Shown: positions 1 through 21,830 of the stretch, one piece after another
Layout: the number at the start of each line of letters is the position of its first letter
Position numbering within the stretch: the first letter of the stretch is position 1
Source: a virus
Length of the DNA: 31,332 nucleotides
Virus record (IMG/VR): IMGVR_UViG_3300032050_000536
Location: 1-31,332 of that record
Strand: one strand, 5' to 3'
The notes under the pieces: generated by a model
What the model saw: only the letters and a program-made list of their open reading frames with translations
What the model was told of the DNA's origin: nothing
The model's database searches: none
Made by a program: the position numbers and the translations under genes

Positions 1-104
1 GTTACGTCTACTGAAACGGTATTGGCACTTGCAGGTGTCACTACGAGTGTGCTCGATGCCAAGGCTGCAACCATGACAAGGGCGATCTTCTTAAATGAAT
101 TCAT
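1..104 (-). CDS. Secreted or surface protein with Sec signal peptide (3' part outside window)
   Basis: Translating leftward from the ATG at 102-104 gives MNSFKKIALVMVAALASS, then TLVVTPASA and NTVSVDV, open to the window edge. This is a textbook signal peptide: Lys-Lys n-region, a hydrophobic core of about 15 residues, and an AxA cleavage site (ASA) near residue 27. An AAAAGGAG ribosome site lies 5 nt upstream. An in-frame ATG 21 nt further up would add MNNKRRK, but the Shine-Dalgarno sits inside that stretch, so I chose the later ATG. The gene follows the large terminase by 26 nt on the same strand. The mature protein lies outside the window, so its function is unknown. It could be an exported cell-surface factor or a lysis or superinfection-related protein. 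Confident that it is coding and exported; nothing more. Confidence 0.75.
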   Translation of the reverse strand, partial: MNSFKKIALVMVAALASSTLVVTPASANTVSVDV

Positions 105-130
105 TTTTCTCCTTTTATTATTCATTTGGT

Positions 131-1912
131 TTATATTGTTTTTAGCCTATCCAAATAGTCTTTAATCTCTTCTATTTGACTAGGTTTATATTGTATCACG
201 TTCTCAGGTAGTTCGTCAACTCGCTTAGGTCTATCCCTAAAAGTATGAACCTCTACCTCAGTGTCTGTATTTTTAGGGGTATAAGATATAGCCCCAAAAA
301 TAGCACCACACACAGCATCAGCCAAGTCCTTTGACTTTTTGCGTGGATGGTCAACTCTATCATTTTTCATAATCTTTAACTGGGTTAGTTCATCAAATAA
401 TAAATCAATTGCAGGCATAGCAAGTCTTTCCTCATACACGAGCATAGCCATATCCTCATAGTGCTTCTTGGCAACAGAAACAGTATCAGTTTTCATTCCA
501 ACCTGCTTGAGTTCATTCTGAATATCAAATGACTGCCAACGGTCAAAGGAAACCATTCCAATATCAAACCCAAGCCTTCTAAGGTTCTGAATCCACTGTT
601 TAACCTCAGAAAGATTAACGGGACCTTCAACTTTTGGCTCCCACCAAGCAACGGCATCTACTACTACAATAGGTGCTACTTGTTCGTAGTTGTTGATTAC
701 TTGTATATTTACCCATTTTTCTACATGTGCAATTGCTACCGCACACTTGTCATGCTTTTGTGCAAGGTCAGCATGAACATAATATTTTTTAGTTGGATCT
801 GGTTTAAATGCTTCGTCAAACCTTTTAAAATTATCTATTGGGTTTCTTAATGTCATACAGGCTCTTACTTTTTCTGCCTGCTTAAAAAATGCATCTGAAG
901 CAAAAGTTGGTACGCATGCAAAGCGCATCATGGCATCACCAAGGTCTGTCATAAATGCAATCATAAAGTCATTAATCTTTCGTGTAGGGTTTACTTCCCA
1001 TGTAGGTCTCTTTAGTGCAAATACTCCTGGATACTTATATGAAATTATATGATCTTCGTCCCACGAAATTTGAAACTTATTGTCTGGGTCTGTCTCTGGA
1101 AGCAATGGATTAATTATGAATTCGTGTGTTCTTTCAACTGATTCTTTTTCAGCAATAACTGCATCATATCTTTCTGAGATAAAGTCTCCTGGATATCTTG
1201 GGAATGAAAGCAAAACAACCTTTCCTAAATCTGGGAAACGAGAGTCTACTGATCCACGGAAAGCCTTATATATATTGTCTGCGGTCTTTCCTTGCTCATT
1301 ACCCGTTCCAACCTCAGATGCAAAACCAGAAATCTCATCAAGAACTGCAAGAAGAAGGTTTAAACCCTCATGTGATTCACGCTCTGAGTGACCAGAGTAA
1401 ACAGTAATTGATTTATCAAACTCAACTGAGTCTGCCTTAGCATTATACTTTCCAGCAAACCATGGGGACTTTTCAATCTTAGATTTAAAACCTTTAAAGA
1501 AAACATTCTTTGCTTGTTGTGCGTTAATAGCAACATTGATAAGGTCAATAGCATCTCCAGAGGGCTTTCCAAAATACTTTGCAGGGTCTTTTAGGCATAA
1601 TAGTTTATATACTATATATGAGCATGCTACGGTTGATGTGAAGTCTTTTCCAGATCCCTTGCCAAGTTGTAGGATGATTTCATTCTTTGTGTACTTATCA
1701 TAATAGCGAGTTCCTTTTTCTTCCCCCATTATGTCTATCAAATCTTCTTTACGATAAATCTGACTCATAGCCTCAACAATGTCATATTGAATATCAGACA
1801 AAGGTGGTTGGCCAAGGTAGTCTGGAGACTCAACAAAAGTCTTTGCATCTACTGGGGTTTCTTCAAAGTGATTACTTTTAAGAACTTCTAAAAAATCATC
1901 AAAGTCTGCCAT
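131..1912 (-). CDS. terL: Terminase large subunit (packaging ATPase and nuclease)
   Basis: Motor that cuts concatemeric DNA and pumps it into the prohead. The 593-residue protein has the full two-domain layout. In the ATPase part, Walker A is GKGSGKD (about residues 84-90), Walker B is LLLAVLDE with D192 and E193, and a C-motif-like VVLLSFPR sits near 232-239. In the RNase H-fold nuclease part, acidic residues appear in YVHADLA (D382), SFDRWQS (D457) and KSKDLADAV (D529/D532), the usual terminase nuclease arrangement. Length is normal for the family. The start overlaps the stop of the small subunit (TAATG), implying coupled translation. The neighbours fit: TerS directly upstream. No portal or capsid gene follows; a secreted protein does. 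Function is near certain; the packaging type (cos, pac or headful) cannot be told here. Confidence 0.95.
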   Translation of the reverse strand: MADFDDFLEVLKSNHFEETPVDAKTFVESPDYLGQPPLSDIQYDIVEAMSQIYRKEDLIDIMGEEKGTRYYDKYTKNEIILQLGKGSGKDFTSTVACSYIVYKLLCLKDPAKYFGKPSGDAIDLINVAINAQQAKNVFFKGFKSKIEKSPWFAGKYNAKADSVEFDKSITVYSGHSERESHEGLNLLLAVLDEISGFASEVGTGNEQGKTADNIYKAFRGSVDSRFPDLGKVVLLSFPRYPGDFISERYDAVIAEKESVERTHEFIINPLLPETDPDNKFQISWDEDHIISYKYPGVFALKRPTWEVNPTRKINDFMIAFMTDLGDAMMRFACVPTFASDAFFKQAEKVRACMTLRNPIDNFKRFDEAFKPDPTKKYYVHADLAQKHDKCAVAIAHVEKWVNIQVINNYEQVAPIVVVDAVAWWEPKVEGPVNLSEVKQWIQNLRRLGFDIGMVSFDRWQSFDIQNELKQVGMKTDTVSVAKKHYEDMAMLVYEERLAMPAIDLLFDELTQLKIMKNDRVDHPRKKSKDLADAVCGAIFGAISYTPKNTDTEVEVHTFRDRPKRVDELPENVIQYKPSQIEEIKDYLDRLKTI

Positions 1913-5453: not shown

Positions 5454-6456
5454 TTAACCTAGACTTAATTGATTCTTGCAAGTCAAGATCCTCTCTTACT
5501 CGATTAACAAATGCTTCTTTACCCTGAACTTTTGTGCCATCAGGAAGTATGTACCATGCTCCTGTACGCTCTACAATACCGTTTAGTTCTGCTGTAGTAA
5601 CCAGATCACCAATGGTATCAAGACCAATATCGTCACCTCTAAAGTAAAAATCATACTCACCAGACTGGAACCCTGGAGAGGTTTTGGAGAATTGGAGTTC
5701 CCACTTAATAGTTCTACCAATTTTTTCTTCAATTAATTTATCTCCTACCTTGATCTTGCCCTTAATCGCTTGATTGTCTGACTCTGAAGAAAAGAGTTTA
5801 ATAATACATGAGGAATAAAACTTAGTAGCCTGACCACCAGAAGGCTGCTGGCTAGTATACATAGCATTGATATTGTTACGAGACTGAGAAATAAGAACAA
5901 GCAGAGTTGGCTTAACTTTATTGTTTGCATAGTTAAGCATTTTCCATGCGTTACTAAAGTCACGAGATTCGGCTCCAATCTGTTTAGTGTTTTCTAATGC
6001 TTTCATTTCATCTGTATCTTTTTCAAAATAGATTGCAGGAAGCATTGATGTAATAGAGTCTACCACAATTAGATCAACTCCAGCATTCATTAATCCGACA
6101 CCTACGTCTACCATGTCGCTAATAGTTCTTGCTTGTGAGTAGATTAGTTTCTCTGGATCTACCCCAAGAGTTCTGGCCCAGTCTTCTGAATATGACATCT
6201 CTGAGTCAATCCACGCACACAACTTGCCTTCTGCTTGAGCAAGAGCAATCATTTGAAGACACATAGAAGACTTTGCAGAGGACTTAGATCCCCAGATAAG
6301 TACCTGTCTGCCGTAAGGAAGTCCACCGCCAAGGGCACGGTTTAAACCAAAACTTGGTGTGGGCTGATACTCATAGTTGATACCTACACCACTGCCCAAT
6401 CTTTTTCTTAACTTGGGGTCTAACTGTGCTAACGCTTCTTCTATACTAACTGACAT
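5446..6456 (-). CDS. recA: RecA-like recombinase with altered Walker A
   Basis: 336 residues; strand exchange and recombination-dependent replication or repair. Against bacterial RecA from memory, the catalytic glutamate is kept (AWIDSEMS, E86), Walker B is LIVVDSITS, the ATP-sensing glutamine is kept (LVLISQSR), and the DNA-binding L2 core is SGGQATKFYSS. The C-terminal TGAWYILPDG is also RecA-like. The Walker A is GSKSSAKSS: alanine stands where the invariant glycine of GK-T/S normally is. Start: a longer ORF begins two codons earlier, but GGAGG (6463-6467) touches that ATG and is six bases from the ATG at 6454-6456, so the latter is used. It overlaps the polymerase gene by 11 nt. Confident family call; whether ATP turnover is normal is open. 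Confidence 0.9.
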   Translation of the reverse strand: MSVSIEEALAQLDPKLRKRLGSGVGINYEYQPTPSFGLNRALGGGLPYGRQVLIWGSKSSAKSSMCLQMIALAQAEGKLCAWIDSEMSYSEDWARTLGVDPEKLIYSQARTISDMVDVGVGLMNAGVDLIVVDSITSMLPAIYFEKDTDEMKALENTKQIGAESRDFSNAWKMLNYANNKVKPTLLVLISQSRNNINAMYTSQQPSGGQATKFYSSCIIKLFSSESDNQAIKGKIKVGDKLIEEKIGRTIKWELQFSKTSPGFQSGEYDFYFRGDDIGLDTIGDLVTTAELNGIVERTGAWYILPDGTKVQGKEAFVNRVREDLDLQESIKSRLND

Positions 6457-9400
6457 GTACATCCTCCAATGTTACGGTTCCGTCTTTCGTCTTGCCAAAA
6501 TCAAACTTGTAATACTTTCCTTCTTCAATATGCATGTATGCTTTTGGAAATGATGTTGGAAACACTGTAATCGAATGAAGATCTCTCTTTGTGTCTGCCA
6601 GTGTAAGCGACGCCATTTTCTTTCCAGCCTTAGTAACTCTTGGTTTAAAAGAAACCACAAACATTTCATCATCTTTAAATGGCAATTGCTTGTATCCTAA
6701 AAACTTTACAAGAGCATGCGATGATTCTTTTATTTCTTCAGATGGTATGAAAGATACAATCCGATTATCATTACAAAGAACCAAATAAGAACGACCCGTC
6801 TCAATAGCGGTATTTTCATCATCAAATATACCGACAGACCCAGTCTTGTCCAAAATTTCAACTCGTGACCATCCTGTTCCCCTCTTAATAGATTTTACCA
6901 TACCCATAAAAATATATGAGCCTTTTTCTTCAAAGTCAACAATGTCCTGAATAAATGCATAGTAATGGGATGGAATGGTAATATTAAACTCTGGAAGGTT
7001 TAAAAACTCATAAAGATTTTCTTTAATTGCTTTATCATCTCTTGGATTGTCTGGAAATGTTGCTGCACCAATAGCCTTTAGTGCCTGAAGGGCTCTACTG
7101 TTTACACCATTTCCCTTAGTAAATGTGAACGCTTCAAGTTCTGCATAAGACTTAAAAGGTCGTGCCTGTATATATCGTTCTGCAATCTTATCAGATATAA
7201 ATTTGATTGCCGTGAGTCCGAACCGAATACCCTTACCCTCAATTTTAAAATCAATATCCGAATCATTAATGTGAGGTAGTTTAACGCTAATCCCCATTCT
7301 TTTCGCTTCAATAAGATATTCAGTTCTCGCATCTTTGTCCTTTTCATTTTTTAGCACTGAGTACATAAACTCAAGTGGATAATAATACTTTAACCACGCT
7401 GTCCAGTATGACAGAGTTGAATATGCTACTGCGTGAGACTTGTTAAATGAATACCCTGCGTGGGCCTCAAAGTCATGCCACAAATCTAGAGCAGCATGTG
7501 GTGTAATGTACTTGGATGCACCCGCTACAAATTTTTCCTTAAACTGATCAAATTCTTTAGCATCCTTTTTCTTTCCAATGATCTTTCTAACTTTATCTGC
7601 TTCCGACATGGACATACCGCCAAGGTGTACGCATGCTTGCATAACTTGTTCCTGGTAAAGAATACAGCCATAGGTGTCCTCCGTAAATTCTTTTAATACT
7701 TGATGAATGTAGGATATGTTTTGTCTACCGTGTTTACGATCAACATAATCTTTTCCAATTGTGTTCATTGCACCTGGACGGACAAGAGCATTGGATGCTG
7801 CAAGTTCGTTTAAGTTTTTAACGCCCATCTTTACAAGAAGGTTTGTGTATGGTGCTGCTTCACACTGAAACACTCCCTTTGTGTGGCCGTCAGAAAGCAT
7901 TTGATAAACATTGGCATCATCCATTTTAATCTTAAGAAGATTTATCTTTTTGCCATCTCGCTCTTTGATTATATCAATTGTGTCTTTAAGAACTGACAAA
8001 GTTTTAAGTCCAAGAGCATCAATTTTAATTAAACCAATTCTTTCTGCTTCTTCCATGTCAACGCCAACAACAGGAATTCTTTCATCAGAACCAGTAGACG
8101 ATCTAGTTTCAAGTGGTGCGTATCTAAAGATTGGTTCTTTGCTTGTTACTACGCCTGCTGCGTGAATACCTGTACCACGAATACGACCACGAAGTTGCTC
8201 TCCATAAATCTCTACTTCTGGATATTTTTCACGAAACTCATATGTTGATTTTGATGTACAGAAATCATCCCATGAGTCTACAGTCTTTAATACCTTATTA
8301 ACATCTGACAAAGGGATGTTGAGAACTCGTGCAACATCTCTAACAATTCCTTTACCAGTAAACTCAAGGAAGGTGGCAATGGAAGCAACATGTCGATACT
8401 GTCTAACTAGATAGTCTTTTACTTCTTCACGACGAGTATCTTGAATGTCTGTATCAATATCTGGAAAGTCATTACGCTCTGGATTAATAAAACGGAAGAA
8501 CAAAAGATTATGCTCAATAGGGTCAATATCTGTAATTCCTAAAGCATAACAAACAAGAGAACCAGCAGAAGAACCTCTGCCTGGACCAACCAAAATCTCT
8601 TCTTTCTTTGCCCAGTTAATCATGTTGCTAACAACCAAAAAGTATGGGGCAAACTTTTTGTCTTTAATAATCTGTAACTCTTCTTCAAGTCTATCAAGGT
8701 ACTCTTGGTTTTCTGACAAACCACGCTCTACCAAACCTTCTAGTGCAACCTTTGCAAGTTCCTTATCAGGACTTTTATACTGTACTGGTAGAAGGTTTAA
8801 TCCTTCTTGAATGCCATAGTCTCCTACTGTATCTGCTAGTAGAAGTGTGTTTGAGTAGATATCTGGTCGATCAATACCCTGCGATTCCATCGCTGCTTTA
8901 ATCTCTTCATATGAGAGCAAGTGGATGTCAAACTTATTAAATGTTATCTGACGGTCTTCGCCATATAGATAATCAAGGCGTTCCATCATGTCTTTTTTCT
9001 TTTTTGATTTTTCATATGTTGCATCTTTTTCAAACTTGCCGTGGGTATTCATAAGCAACTTAAACTCTTGAATTTCTTTTTGTGATGGGTCAACATGATG
9101 GCAGTCTGGTGTAACAATAACCTTAATGCCAAACTCATCAGCAAGTTCGATTAAATATTTATTAATGTGGGCTTCGTTGTGAGGCATGACTTCAATATAA
9201 TAGTCATCGGCAAATCTTTCTTTGAACCAAGAAATGTACTTCTTGGCGAGAGCAAACTCTTCTTCTTCTAATGCTTTTACGAGTACGCTACTTGGGCAAG
9301 CAGAAGAAACAATGATTCCCTCTTTATATTTTTCTAATATAGCAAAATCAAACCTTGGCTTCTTAAAGAAACCATCTGTCCAAGATAGTTCACTGATCTT

Positions 9401-9721
9401 ATTTAAATTTTCTAAACCAATTTGATTCTTGGCTAGAAGGATAATGTGATTATAGACAAGATCTTGTTGACCTTCTCTTTCAGACTTATCTCGTGTATCA
9501 GATATGTCTGCACACATGTATCCTTCTAGACCTAGAATTGGCTTAATGCCCTTTGCTTTTGCAATACGGTGCAGTTCCCTATGCCCAGATAAAGTACCGT
9601 GGTCGGTGATAGCAATTGCTGGCATCCCCAACTCAACTGCACGGTTCACGTATTCTTCTGGAGTAGCAATCCCATCAAACAAACTAAAATGGGTATGGAC
9701 ATGTAAGCCTACGTAGTTCAT
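6446..9721 (-). CDS. dnaE: DNA polymerase III alpha subunit (C-family, DnaE type)
   Basis: 1,091 residues; replicative polymerase of the phage. The N-terminal PHP domain is intact in its metal motifs: LHVHTHFSLFDG (H7, H9), AIAITDHG (D40, H41), H92, and PDCHHV near 205-210. In several bacteria an intact PHP domain is the proofreading exonuclease, so that is possible here; no separate DnaQ is seen in the window. The polymerase core shows GPGRGSSAGSLVCYALG (379-395), PDIDTDIQDTRREEVKDYL with D421, D423 and D425, and IKIDALGLKT with D568, matching the three catalytic aspartates of DnaE. YQEQVMQ near 690 and a C-terminal HhH/OB-like region follow. Slightly shorter than E. coli DnaE (1,160). The C-terminal clamp and tau contacts cannot be judged. 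Confidence 0.95.
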   Translation of the reverse strand: MNYVGLHVHTHFSLFDGIATPEEYVNRAVELGMPAIAITDHGTLSGHRELHRIAKAKGIKPILGLEGYMCADISDTRDKSEREGQQDLVYNHIILLAKNQIGLENLNKISELSWTDGFFKKPRFDFAILEKYKEGIIVSSACPSSVLVKALEEEEFALAKKYISWFKERFADDYYIEVMPHNEAHINKYLIELADEFGIKVIVTPDCHHVDPSQKEIQEFKLLMNTHGKFEKDATYEKSKKKKDMMERLDYLYGEDRQITFNKFDIHLLSYEEIKAAMESQGIDRPDIYSNTLLLADTVGDYGIQEGLNLLPVQYKSPDKELAKVALEGLVERGLSENQEYLDRLEEELQIIKDKKFAPYFLVVSNMINWAKKEEILVGPGRGSSAGSLVCYALGITDIDPIEHNLLFFRFINPERNDFPDIDTDIQDTRREEVKDYLVRQYRHVASIATFLEFTGKGIVRDVARVLNIPLSDVNKVLKTVDSWDDFCTSKSTYEFREKYPEVEIYGEQLRGRIRGTGIHAAGVVTSKEPIFRYAPLETRSSTGSDERIPVVGVDMEEAERIGLIKIDALGLKTLSVLKDTIDIIKERDGKKINLLKIKMDDANVYQMLSDGHTKGVFQCEAAPYTNLLVKMGVKNLNELAASNALVRPGAMNTIGKDYVDRKHGRQNISYIHQVLKEFTEDTYGCILYQEQVMQACVHLGGMSMSEADKVRKIIGKKKDAKEFDQFKEKFVAGASKYITPHAALDLWHDFEAHAGYSFNKSHAVAYSTLSYWTAWLKYYYPLEFMYSVLKNEKDKDARTEYLIEAKRMGISVKLPHINDSDIDFKIEGKGIRFGLTAIKFISDKIAERYIQARPFKSYAELEAFTFTKGNGVNSRALQALKAIGAATFPDNPRDDKAIKENLYEFLNLPEFNITIPSHYYAFIQDIVDFEEKGSYIFMGMVKSIKRGTGWSRVEILDKTGSVGIFDDENTAIETGRSYLVLCNDNRIVSFIPSEEIKESSHALVKFLGYKQLPFKDDEMFVVSFKPRVTKAGKKMASLTLADTKRDLHSITVFPTSFPKAYMHIEEGKYYKFDFGKTKDGTVTLEDVHVS
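6463..6467 (-). promoter_or_regulatory. Ribosome site deciding the RecA start
   Basis: GGAGG lies six bases before the ATG at 6454-6456 and directly abuts the alternative ATG at 6460-6462, which would leave no spacing. It is embedded in the last codons of the polymerase gene. Confidence 0.75.
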
Positions 9722-16641: not shown

Positions 16642-19600
16642 TTATACCACCTCACTTAAAAATAGTTGCATCTCTGGACCGTTTGAATTTCTTGAAAAAT
16701 CAATATTGTATACAACAAATCTGCTTGAAGAGTCTGCAGCAATATCTATTCCATTCTCTTTGTAGTCTACGCTTACTATATCTCCAAGTTGGATTGTTGG
16801 AATAGAAAATATTTTAACTCCAAGTGCTTTTCTTGGTTTTGATATTTTTGTAACAAGCCACCTCATTAGTTCAGATGCTTCATCTTGTGACTGAATATAG
16901 GCAGCATCTAAAGAAAAATCTTTTCTTCCGTGCTGCATACGGCTAAACTTTATATCTTCGTAGTCTAACTTAAACTTAAACGGATTTGAAATTAGTTTGT
17001 CTGCAACAAATTTTGGATCTGACATTACGCTATTTTTATTAAAATATTGATCAACTGTCAAAGTATTGCTTGACTGCTGAGTAAAAGTAATTCCCTGAAT
17101 TCTTAAATAGTTTCCACTAGTTTCATCTAGATTAAGCGCAGTATCTGTTGCATTAAACACTAGAAATTCTGCGCCATATGATCCTGCTCTAAATCCAGAA
17201 ATAACAAATCCTTTTATTTTATTGAACGTTGGAGAAATTTTTGCTGTTAGTGCTGGAAATGCTTTGTCATATTTAAAACTAAATTCTGCCACTTCTCTCA
17301 TTATACTTCCAAACTCCTCAAAATAAATATCATACTTTGGTGGTTCTGAAGATCCAATTCCAGAAAGATAGGTATTTTGTATTAATCCACTCATAGCGTA
17401 TTTTCTGAAAGAGTTACCTGCATCAATATCAGAGTCTGCAAAAACAGAATTGACAACGGTTCCCAAAGAAAATGACGTGTTCTGAGAATAATTGTTGCAT
17501 AGTGCATAGACATTTTCAAACATTGCTCTTGAAGAACCTCTGGTAAATAAGGCAATATTTGAATACTCTGGCAATGGATCTGAGTCGTCTACTGTTTTTA
17601 CCATGGTTCCATTTATGTATAAGTAGAACCTTCTTATGTTTCCTATGTTTTCATACTCTACTGCTAAGTCATATACCGTCGGATTTTCTTCAGCAAATAA
17701 TCTTGACTGACCAGTAAACCTGCCATCATCTACTATAATCTTGGCTAAGCCTTTGTATAGGGTAAGTGGAATTGCTTTACCATTGTCAGACTTGACTTTA
17801 TAAAACAAAACATTGTGAACATTTTGTTTTTCTTTTTCTGACAACTTATTTAATCCAAGTGCTGCAATTTCAAAATAATATCCAACGTTGGTTGTTGGGT
17901 TTAGCATTACTGCTATACCTCCAGACCCTCCAGATATTGTAACATTTTTATCTGGGGTAGAACCATTTATAACATAGTATGATGCTGCACCATTAGCAGT
18001 TTGACCACGATCACTACTGTTTTCAATTTTACCAACTAGTCGTATTCTAGTTCCAAAGTGCTTATATTTTTTATCTGTCAAAGGCTTATGCACATATGAT
18101 ACAAAATCTCTTGGCTTATCTTTTGTCGTAAAGTTGGGACCAGTCAAAGAAAGCGCTGATGCTTGAACAGATCCAGGAACCTGCTGAGTTTGTGTAGTTA
18201 TCTCTCCTGTTAAAGAGGTTGACAAAAAGTTTCTAATAAGTCCTGTTCGTGTCGAAGTTCTTGCCAAAGCATCAGAAGATGCTCCATTGCTTATTGTTTT
18301 TCCTGCAGAAGCAACTGTTGTTTGTGGCAAATCAGTTTTTGTTTCAAACAAATATTCTGAAGCCATATAGCATCCTTTTACATTGTCTTCAGATTTCCAA
18401 TAATCAGATATACCAGCAGAATGCTCTACAACTGTTGTTCCAAATTGACCACGGCCATGCTTGGCAACTGGACCATTTTTAAGTTTTAAAATTCCTTCTT
18501 GTTCAAAATAATTAGGAACAGAGTAAATTTTGACAAGGCCTGTTGGATAAATTTTTCCATTAAATGGAAGTTTAGAGAAATAGTTTTGATACTCTTCAAC
18601 TGAAGATATCCAAACATTGCCCGAACCAGTTACGTTATATTGAACTGCGTCATACTTTATAACTTCTCCACTAGAGTAAAAGTAACCATTGTATCTTGTA
18701 ATCCAGTATACCGCTTCTCCAAGACTAAACGTATTGTTTATTACGATACCGTTTTTTACCTCTGGGACTTTATCTGATAGGTTAGAACTTAAAGGTATTG
18801 CAGCAAGCACATATGAAGATTGTGTTCCAACCTCGTTATTAATTGACTTTGTGTTCTCAGTACCAGATACTTCCCAAAGTAGTGCTGGCTTATACACATA
18901 CATTCTTTCATCTTCTAGAAGACTCGCCTGTCTTAAAGTACCGATAGATCTTTGAATATGTCTAACAGTGTAATTTATTGTGCCACCGTTGTAAACCGTG
19001 TTTGACTCATTTGATACCGAAATAATGTTTGCTAGTTTTGCATTGTCTAAAGTTTTATTTTTAATTTCTCTATCTTCATACAAATCGTTAGTTCCTTTAA
19101 GAGCAAATGTGGTTGGTCTTTGTTCTTTAGTTGGCATTATATAGTCTTTGCTCATCATAACAAAGTTATTGTACTCATCAAAAAACATTGCTGTCTGTGT
19201 TGATATTGCCAAATCCTGCAACACCTGAGCAACACTTTTATCTGGAGCAACAAAGAAAAATGGCATTACCATTTCTTTTTCATTAGAGACTCTTCTAAAT
19301 GTATAGTTAGAAAAACCGATACTGTCTAACAAAAGAGAAACTGCAGAACTAACAGAAACCTCTGTCATTAATATTTCTGGTGCTGTAATTGATTCTAGAT
19401 ACCAATACATATCTCTTAACGATATAGAAATTCTTTTATTGACCAAATCTGCTTTTGGAAATGAATCAGAGTATAAAGTTTTCATAGGAACCCAATAGTC
19501 CCAACCACCAACATTTATAATAATTTCATAAAACTTAAACTGCACATGACTATCTACATATTTTGCAATAATACTTGATGGGTTATTTTCGTTAAATGCC

Positions 19601-21189
19601 TGATCATGATCAAAAATATTAATGCTTCCATTTGATGCAACTAACTGTCCTACTGGCAAACCACTTAAACCTAAATCAGATGCGCTTTTATTTATTGAAT
19701 AATCTAACACCTTGTCGGAAAGATTCATTGCAAGTCTTGGAGAAATTTCAATAAGATCAAAAGTGGAATCTTTTGCAGTCATAGAATCTACAACAATCCT
19801 AACTCCAGAAATGTATTCAAACTCTCGATATTTAATTTTATTATCTAAAGAGTTGATAAATTTATCTGGGGAGGTTGCATCTGTAAGGAAGTTGGTTAAC
19901 CTATCAACAGTTTCATCCTGCACATACCATCCGTATTTTGGAGTTATAATTGTGTAGTCTGTGCCATTCCATATATAATATTTTCCTATATCATTTTCAT
20001 TTTCTTTAATAAGATATGCATAGCCAATAACAGACTGCTCAGGAAGTAGTGTGTCACTTGAGTATACCTCGGCAAAAACAAATGTGTCTATCCATTCGTC
20101 TGGAACAATAAAGCCATATGATATTTCAACATAGCCATCGCTTTTAATAATTGCAGAACCGTCTTTTCTTCTTTTTGACGGATCAAACGAAATAATATCT
20201 TGCCAATTTCCTTCTTTTAAGAATTGAATTTTCCATCTGCTTGGAACTTTTTGATTTACCTCTCCATAAAATGGGTCAGCAAAAGAGCCTGTTGAGGAGG
20301 AGAATGGCCCAAGGTCTTCAGTACCTGTATGGGTTTGCATTTTGATTACAACCCTGTTTGTTGGTATTTGCTCTTTGTATACCACGAAAGGACAAGCATC
20401 TTCTATGGCATTTTGAACACCATTTATTTTTGATGCAATTCCATACTCAAAATTTTCTGCTACACCTTTCTTTTCTGTATTGTCCTTGTCAATAAATGTT
20501 TCGCTCAATCCATAGGAAACAGAAGCATCATTATATGTGTACTTATATCTAGTTTCAGTCCTGTATGATGTCCAATATTTAAACTTATCTTTTTTATCTG
20601 GCATATAATATCTTGGTCTATCTGCCATAAACATATTTGGATAATGTAGTTTTCCATTTTCAAAATATACAGCCTTATTGATGCCAGATCTAGGTCTAAA
20701 TCTTTCAAAGCAACTTTCTAAGGAGTATAGCGTTTGAGTTTTTTCTTTTTTAGTTAAAAATGTAGTTGGGGTATTATCATTTTCAAAAGTGCCATCTATC
20801 AAAACATCTGCATCTGTTGCTCCTGTATAAAAATTTCCAACATCATTAATATCAAAACTTGTAGGTAAAGAAGAGTATATAGAAGATGGTTGTTCTGTAC
20901 TCACCCTCCATCGATTTCTAGTGTCCGTGTCAGAAATCTTACACTCATAAGTCGCACCTGAAGAAGATTTGCCTATTGCTCCAGCAGGTGAACAAAAAGC
21001 CCCTGGGGTAATGGTCCATACTGAACTTATTGGGTTTGGTGTTGAAGTTTGGGTTGGTCTATATCTATAATTACCAATATGCTTGATATTGTTTGTTCTG
21101 TTCATATTTAATTCTGCAATAACTGCTGACTTATTTCTAACAGTATCAGCAGTCTCTAAAAAGGTTTGCAGGTCTTTGTCTTCAAACAT
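16642..21189 (-). CDS. Tail hub/adhesion protein (Tal-like) with LamG-like domain
   Basis: 1,515 residues. A longer frame starts at 21222, but the ATG at 21187-21189 overlaps the preceding stop (TAATG) and has GGAAGAAG four bases upstream, so that start is chosen. Residues about 480-690 have the pattern of tail-hub (gp27/Tal-type) proteins (VSSAVSLLLDSIGFSNYTFR ... MPFFFVAPDKSVAQVLQDLA). Residues about 1045-1233 resemble a LamG/concanavalin-like lectin (GTRIRLVGKIENSSDRG ... RRFYLYINGTMVKTV). The C-terminal LGVKIFSIPTIQLGDIVSVDY also looks hub-like. It probably caps the tail tube and helps bind the cell surface. No lysozyme or peptidase motif was noticed. Domain calls are by eye. Confidence 0.7.
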   Translation of the reverse strand: MFEDKDLQTFLETADTVRNKSAVIAELNMNRTNNIKHIGNYRYRPTQTSTPNPISSVWTITPGAFCSPAGAIGKSSSGATYECKISDTDTRNRWRVSTEQPSSIYSSLPTSFDINDVGNFYTGATDADVLIDGTFENDNTPTTFLTKKEKTQTLYSLESCFERFRPRSGINKAVYFENGKLHYPNMFMADRPRYYMPDKKDKFKYWTSYRTETRYKYTYNDASVSYGLSETFIDKDNTEKKGVAENFEYGIASKINGVQNAIEDACPFVVYKEQIPTNRVVIKMQTHTGTEDLGPFSSSTGSFADPFYGEVNQKVPSRWKIQFLKEGNWQDIISFDPSKRRKDGSAIIKSDGYVEISYGFIVPDEWIDTFVFAEVYSSDTLLPEQSVIGYAYLIKENENDIGKYYIWNGTDYTIITPKYGWYVQDETVDRLTNFLTDATSPDKFINSLDNKIKYREFEYISGVRIVVDSMTAKDSTFDLIEISPRLAMNLSDKVLDYSINKSASDLGLSGLPVGQLVASNGSINIFDHDQAFNENNPSSIIAKYVDSHVQFKFYEIIINVGGWDYWVPMKTLYSDSFPKADLVNKRISISLRDMYWYLESITAPEILMTEVSVSSAVSLLLDSIGFSNYTFRRVSNEKEMVMPFFFVAPDKSVAQVLQDLAISTQTAMFFDEYNNFVMMSKDYIMPTKEQRPTTFALKGTNDLYEDREIKNKTLDNAKLANIISVSNESNTVYNGGTINYTVRHIQRSIGTLRQASLLEDERMYVYKPALLWEVSGTENTKSINNEVGTQSSYVLAAIPLSSNLSDKVPEVKNGIVINNTFSLGEAVYWITRYNGYFYSSGEVIKYDAVQYNVTGSGNVWISSVEEYQNYFSKLPFNGKIYPTGLVKIYSVPNYFEQEGILKLKNGPVAKHGRGQFGTTVVEHSAGISDYWKSEDNVKGCYMASEYLFETKTDLPQTTVASAGKTISNGASSDALARTSTRTGLIRNFLSTSLTGEITTQTQQVPGSVQASALSLTGPNFTTKDKPRDFVSYVHKPLTDKKYKHFGTRIRLVGKIENSSDRGQTANGAASYYVINGSTPDKNVTISGGSGGIAVMLNPTTNVGYYFEIAALGLNKLSEKEKQNVHNVLFYKVKSDNGKAIPLTLYKGLAKIIVDDGRFTGQSRLFAEENPTVYDLAVEYENIGNIRRFYLYINGTMVKTVDDSDPLPEYSNIALFTRGSSRAMFENVYALCNNYSQNTSFSLGTVVNSVFADSDIDAGNSFRKYAMSGLIQNTYLSGIGSSEPPKYDIYFEEFGSIMREVAEFSFKYDKAFPALTAKISPTFNKIKGFVISGFRAGSYGAEFLVFNATDTALNLDETSGNYLRIQGITFTQQSSNTLTVDQYFNKNSVMSDPKFVADKLISNPFKFKLDYEDIKFSRMQHGRKDFSLDAAYIQSQDEASELMRWLVTKISKPRKALGVKIFSIPTIQLGDIVSVDYKENGIDIAADSSSRFVVYNIDFSRNSNGPEMQLFLSEVV

Positions 21190-21830
21190 TATACTTCTTC
21201 CAAGGTTACTGAGACATTCCAATAGTCAAACTTAGTTCCTCTTTTTTCAACTGAATAAGAAAAGTCAGTAATAAACATTTCAATCAATTGATTGTACTGC
21301 CGAAGATGATCATATGGCGCTTCTGTTCCTTTAAAAATTCCTTTTCTATCATATGCAAGAAATACCCAGAAAGAACCTTTGTGTGCATCATACCACTCAA
21401 GCATGTCAGCACCACCTGCCCCCCCATCTGTTGTGTAGGACCTTTTTGGAGAAAGCCCACTAATTGTGTCAAATGTGGGAACATCATCGTGAGACCTAGA
21501 AGGAATCAATGTCCAACTAGTACTTAGAGTGAGTTTGTCTGAAATATGATATGATCTCATGCGACCATTAATCATTCTTTCTCTTTTTTCTATTCTTTCA
21601 TTTTTAAACTGTATTGGCTGCCTATTGTCATCAGTTATCAGTAGGAATTGATCTGCTAATGATGGATCTTCTATTCCTTCTGGATCTGCCCCGATTTCAT
21701 AGCCATTAGGAACATAAATTCCATTTTGCAAAGTGCCAGTATTTTCTGACCAAAGCATACCGCTTGGTCTATAATATTTTTGACGACCAAGCATGTAAGT
21801 AACTCTTGGGTCTATCACTTCTTCAACCAT
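21189..21830 (-). CDS. Distal tail protein (Dit-like)
   Basis: 213 residues. The C-terminal half (WYDAHKGSFWVFLAYDRKGI near 145-164, then IEMFITDFSYSVEKRG and YWNVSVTLEEV) has the shape I associate with actinophage minor tail/Dit proteins placed directly after the tape measure gene: a beta-rich ring protein connecting tube and tip. The preceding SYHISDKLTLSTSWTLIPSR strand run fits. AGAGGAG lies nine bases before the ATG, in the end of the tape measure gene, which it overlaps by eight bases. Assignment rests on position plus this motif, not on a search. Alternative: another tail-tip ring protein. Confidence 0.6.
   Translation of the reverse strand: MVEEVIDPRVTYMLGRQKYYRPSGMLWSENTGTLQNGIYVPNGYEIGADPEGIEDPSLADQFLLITDDNRQPIQFKNERIEKRERMINGRMRSYHISDKLTLSTSWTLIPSRSHDDVPTFDTISGLSPKRSYTTDGGAGGADMLEWYDAHKGSFWVFLAYDRKGIFKGTEAPYDHLRQYNQLIEMFITDFSYSVEKRGTKFDYWNVSVTLEEV
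21194..21201 (-). promoter_or_regulatory. Ribosome site deciding the hub protein start
   Basis: GGAAGAAG four bases before the ATG at 21187-21189, within the last codons of the Dit-like gene. The longer frame starting at 21222 is therefore not used. Confidence 0.65.

Follow-up and report, generated by a model that had tools for sequence, protein, structure and literature searches.

An exported-protein gene begins directly after terL

The left end of the window (the whole 31,332-nt stretch analysed, which is an entire record, a linear virus contig) cuts into a minus-strand gene. The translation from position 104, MNSFKKIALVMVAALASSTLVVTPASANTVSVDV, is open to the contig end and, as the window is the complete record, the gene is cut off there and could not be extended in place. 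After the signal peptide, MNSFKKIALVMVAALASSTLVVTPASA, the mature protein is predicted to begin NTVSVDV. The original prediction had placed a Sec signal peptide with an AxA site at this edge, directly downstream of terL and behind a strong ribosome site. All of this stands, including the frame, start, strand and coordinates (Table 1): the terL stop codon (133–131) is separated from the ATG by 26 nt, and the terL assignment is confirmed by PHROGs (phrog_2, E 2e-16).

Table 1. Features at the left end of the window
Feature	Position	Strand	Basis
Exported-protein gene, 5′ part, 34 codons	1–104	minus	Translation; 131 nt at 99.2% to L079, L083, L084 and L142
Sec signal peptide MNSFKKIALVMVAALASSTLVVTPASA, predicted cleavage after ASA (residue 27)	24–104	minus	Translation and signal-peptide test
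Shine-Dalgarno AGGAG, 4 nt 5′ of ATG (104–102)	109–113	minus	Sequence; also in relatives
Alternative in-frame upstream ATG, adds MNNKRRK	123–125	minus	Not general in exported-gene family
terL, terminase large subunit, 593 aa, upstream neighbour carrying the promoter	131–1912	minus	PHROGs
Approximate recombination border, L079 lineage leftward, L003-lineage terL rightward	134–210	minus	Identity profile
Extended −10 promoter TTGACG-N15-TGA-TACAAT (TTGACGAACTACCTGAGAACGTGATACAAT), inside terL 3′ end	190–219	minus	10/12 matches

The signal-peptide test called for two K/R residues early in the protein, an uncharged hydrophobic core and an AxA site at 18–30. The start of the left-edge gene was alone among the window's 868 open starts in passing, and in shuffled windows the same test was passed by ∼1e-4 per open start. 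A like N-terminus is kept in ∼150 distinct relatives. Because the upstream ATG is not general in the family, the ATG at 104 is the likelier start.

One element of the original prediction did not hold, namely that a portal gene would be usual at this position. Here terL is the last gene of a replication and recombination run, and in Streptomyces phage relatives small hypothetical genes come next. The run encodes DNA polymerase, UvsX-like, Cas4-like and RuvC-like proteins, not head proteins, and minor tail proteins lie further upstream; the stretches concerned are 6446–9721 and 16642–21222.

A cassette with its own promoter and terminator

A sigma-70-type motif, TTGnnn-N15-TGn-TAnnnT, sits in the last 60–90 nt of terL. 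It was found at exactly the same 30-nt geometry in 151 of 152 distinct relatives, compared with 15 of 2797 control windows (0.5%), and it is kept even where the encoded terL residues differ between relatives. A codon-usage test of the promoter had n = 18 sequences, and the geometry test on 152 regions was used instead. One further extended −10 with this geometry, and no more, occurs on the window's minus strand (10436–10407), directly before the replication gene ssb. On the other side of the gene, a terminator consisting of a hairpin and T-run is present within 110 nt of its 3′ end in 134 of 143 distinct relatives; the window ends before this point.

With its own promoter, one gene and its own terminator, the exported gene is a self-contained, moron-like cassette. 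The properties of a moron recur here: a promoter of its own; a terminator of its own, seen in the relatives; and acquired, mobile status, with absence from this position in more distant relatives. Streptomyces phage Francob, for example, has other genes after terL. The promoter is of host type, and from the promoter alone we infer that expression would be early.

Beyond the cassette on its 3′ side, a second likely exported protein is encoded in L003 (11374–13221; PA14, E 2e-6) and in L079 (11209–12705; a different beta domain), with a Pro-rich linker and a conserved C-terminus resembling a membrane anchor. Further downstream (L079 13583–14176 and 14987–16456; L003 14750–15622 and 15695–16315) lie genes for CHAP endolysins and a metalloprotease-like protein (weak M66 match, HEFGHSIGLPH motif); a small protein there that has a signal peptide was judged subtilisin-like by eye and had no Pfam match.

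Complete alleles share a signal peptide, Ig-like domains and a C-terminal helix

Searching viral contigs with terL gave 80 loci, and the ORF after terL was readable in 67. In all 67 usable loci a member of the exported-gene family lies directly after terL. In one locus (L007, from 9777) the frame is broken shortly past the signal peptide, which represents either a pseudogene or an assembly join. Complete alleles are 350–590 aa long and comprise a signal peptide, Ig-like domains, an Ala-rich helix and a basic tail. In their alignment (A1) the signal peptide is conserved; it is followed by a beta region rich in Thr/Ser, an Ala-rich helix that varies in length and a tail that is again conserved, (F/Y)NxLAxxWNxxNPKAKVxLxK.

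The window fragment is 99.2% identical over 131 nt to one complete allele, that of L079 (386 aa). The model of this protein (mean pLDDT 74) has about two Ig-like domains in the beta region and one 120-residue helix. The window allele belongs to the short type, its relatives having two Ig-like domains and ending in KWNxKNPKAKV. A long type, represented by L065, is ∼560–587 aa in length and lies directly after terL in 64 of 70 cases. Signal peptide, tail and locus place both phage types, short and long, in one family. It is single-copy, with no paralogues inside long phage records. The ectodomain is variable even between close relatives, and in close pairs its dN/dS is 0.21 versus 0.04 for terL; such a value is relaxed or mildly diversifying and does not prove positive selection.

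Database searches placed the family apart from known phage proteins, with no counterpart among known phage families or isolated phages. With 27 members as queries, PHROGs gave no matching family, structural ones included, and Pfam gave weak Ig-type matches only (Big_1, 0.00015). A sequence search of the PDB found nothing significant for the family, no match was present in 50,697 phage records, and a scan of genome contigs with A1 found no relative. Foldseek searches with two models, in each of which a single long helix comes after the Ig-like beta domains, returned many unrelated Ig proteins. Among the matches were the bacterial S-layer proteins SbsB, SbsC, Sap and EA1 (PDB 4aq1, 4uic, 9g93 and 8opr), which likewise have tandem Ig-like domains; their resemblance to the phage protein is one of fold only. 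S-layer membership by fold was not accepted, as TM scores were ∼0.2 and generic Ig proteins ranked equally.

Ig-like domains are common on phage particles. Together with the variable ectodomain, this could indicate a virion or adsorption protein, that is, an Ig-domain decoration or fibre binding the host surface. We consider this highly improbable. The Sec signal peptide is kept in nearly all alleles, and a cleavable signal makes a virion role unlikely; the host homologue described below bears the same signal peptide; and the family has no phage structural match and a locus outside the tail genes. The original prediction, that the phage exports a protein by way of a host-type signal peptide, is supported at the level of sequence. 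A frame break shortly left of position 1 would have refuted it, but a relative with an identical N-terminus is open for 386 aa; so would a mature part known as a virion protein that is not exported, and PHROGs gave no virion family.

The cassette has recombined as a unit

Within the body of terL, the window DNA is ∼92% identical to L003 and 71–86% identical to L079. From about the promoter leftward it becomes nearly identical to L079, whereas the signal-peptide DNA is only 74% identical to L003. As terL resembles L003 but the cassette DNA resembles L079, the cassette is judged to have recombined as a unit in the window.

Contig ends are clustered at this place. Eight of 58 downstream ones fall 86–146 nt past the terL stop, against ∼0.45 predicted for an even spread over 7.9 kb, and the end of the window lies 130 nt past it. 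Contigs that end just inside the signal-peptide code are the window (1–150), L012, L013, L028, L032, L039, L043, L050, L058 and L060. It is likely that assemblies branch where the shared signal peptide meets divergent alleles, giving clustered ends, and assembly breaks may systematically be hiding the exported gene from view.

A secreted host homologue of the long phage type

Host genomes were reached through a published acI probe sequence, which led to Planktophila isolates including LanE43. These encode a secreted protein of ∼580–840 aa (MSTKTTFKRIALVTVAALGFGVL..APSTAA). Its signal peptide and Ala-rich C-terminal coil are conserved, whereas the Ig-like ectodomain that they enclose is very variable. 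Between Planktophila species the ectodomain is 30–40% identical, with both ends conserved (L184–L188). In these genomes the gene follows a sigma-factor or regulator-like gene and, in several, precedes polysaccharide-type genes (neighbours named by eye). A profile of the host protein finds the gene in 82 of 296 Nanopelagicaceae genomes, many of them incomplete. Its architecture suggests that the host protein may be a surface layer or phage receptor.

The long phage allele is 36% identical to the host protein over ∼500 aa (135 bits with composition correction), and it matches 34 of 201 Nanopelagicaceae genomes at 35–42%, with E-values down to 3e-55. The Candidatus Planktophila protein (P. versatilis NZ_CP016774, ∼50470–52356) has the same type of signal peptide and long Ala-rich C-terminal helix, and shares its multi-Ig ectodomain with the long phage type at 35–42% identity. 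The phage gene differs in being carried in its own cassette after terL; the short type differs further, with only two Ig-like domains and a KWNxKNPKAKV tail specific to phages.

The ectodomain and C-terminus appear to have separate histories. Long-type phage ectodomains form one clade separate from the hosts (100/98), to which they are 36% identical; the ectodomain was therefore not taken recently from hosts. Nevertheless, 44 of 69 complete long alleles carry host-type C-terminal coils, with the motif VKIQKKVKA, VNKLLKK or the related VAKIAKKVKA, the first two of which are also those of the host protein. Phage and host coils are on average 74% identical over 34 aa, and up to 88.5% identical in DNA over 208 bp. 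The remaining 25 of 69 have the KWN tail of the short alleles, with just a 26% match to hosts. Given host-like coils despite divergent ectodomains, the C-terminal module appears to have been exchanged with hosts.

The window allele, of the short type, has the signal peptide type of the host family, FKxIALxxxAALxxG, and with composition correction its short-type relatives match the host protein in the signal peptide only. In host genomes no counterpart of the KWNxKNPKAKV tail was recovered, while phage controls scored 43–58 bits; the top host matches to this query proved on inspection to be unrelated periplasmic-binding-type proteins. A match of the A1 profile to P. versatilis (7e-8) was set aside for the short type, as it may stem from the two long-type rows in A1. 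The link of the window allele to the host thus consists of signal peptide, architecture and shared locus, with no direct ectodomain match.

Proposed function

Of the cell-surface roles named in the original prediction, superinfection exclusion through surface masking is the best reading. We consider it probable that the moron-like gene displays an S-layer-like protein on the infected cell, most likely for superinfection exclusion. This fits best because of the host-type promoter, the separate terminator, the host homology of the sister alleles and the fast-evolving ectodomain. In outline, a phage of freshwater Nanopelagicales-type actinobacteria would carry the cassette, most likely transcribed alone by host RNA polymerase, and the protein would be made in the infected cell and exported via Sec. 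The long C-terminal coiled coil and basic tail would hold it on the envelope, where the host protein is presumably held by its helical C-terminus, while the Ig-like ectodomains would mimic the S-layer-like Ig-domain surface protein of the host or take its place. The altered surface might then mask, dilute or replace the receptor, such that competing phages no longer adsorb; the phage's own progeny could perhaps likewise be kept from adsorbing to debris. As there is no evidence of lysogeny, exclusion would act during infection only.

A wider proposal is that a widespread freshwater phage group uses a swappable cassette to re-coat infected cells with a viral version of the host surface protein, trading host-matched C-terminal anchors and excluding rivals. 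We advance this more tentatively, as a possibility falling a little short of even. What the sequences support is the export signal, the architecture, the cassette structure, its conservation, module swapping, the host homology of the long type and the likeness of the coil DNA. Surface display, receptor masking, early expression and the blocking function are predicted from these.

A role in lysis is one rival reading. The phage version could be a poison subunit that co-assembles with the host surface layer and weakens it so that endolysin succeeds. Sister alleles do share both ectodomain and coil with the host protein, and a few genes downstream, relatives encode a CHAP endolysin along with exported proteases and a small membrane protein. 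In most alleles, however, the terminator separates the gene from this CHAP endolysin group, and its own host-type promoter resembles that of the replication gene ssb, with no obvious late context. We therefore regard a lysis helper as unlikely. Alternatively, a released or displayed factor might be aimed elsewhere, at grazers, at aggregation of infected cells or at nutrient capture. The protein is exported, multi-domain and different between close relatives, and in relatives other exported proteins, of PA14 and protease type, are encoded close by; nothing points specifically to such a role, however, and homology to the host's surface protein favours integration into the surface, making this unlikely. 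Superinfection exclusion accordingly ranks first, lysis weakening and other surface roles next, and a virion part last.

Exported phage exclusion proteins are already known, such as Ltp of TP-J34 and Llp of T5. In addition, gp41 of a C. acnes phage has been proposed as an exported superinfection-exclusion protein (PMC11480721). Like the gene described here, these are phage-encoded, have a signal peptide and act, or are thought to act, at the envelope; here the signal peptide and phage locus are observed, and an envelope location is probable. They are, however, small lipoproteins or membrane-tethered proteins, whereas the present family consists of 350–590 aa Ig-domain proteins with host-homologous sister alleles. 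C. difficile CwpV, a host cell-wall protein for which antiphage protection is reported (PMC4737114), is likewise a large cell-surface protein, but it is bacterial and phase-variable, whereas here the phage carries the gene.

Implications for freshwater actinobacteria and their phages

Nanopelagicales rank with the most abundant bacteria of lakes. Their micro-diversity has been attributed to phage predation (PMC10202952). In the open literature on freshwater actinophages, S-layers and exclusion, surveyed non-exhaustively, we met no earlier account of a phage carrying a relative of the Nanopelagicales surface protein. The Ig-domain gene, with host-homologous sister alleles, is real and well conserved, and would be a variant of the exported exclusion proteins already known. 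If the proposal is true, a near-universal phage cassette mirroring the variable surface protein of the host would mark that protein as the contested surface and make it a concrete candidate for the receptor. Phages of hosts without CRISPR could in that case be linked to them by a marker, the C-terminal coil DNA that phage and host have in common.
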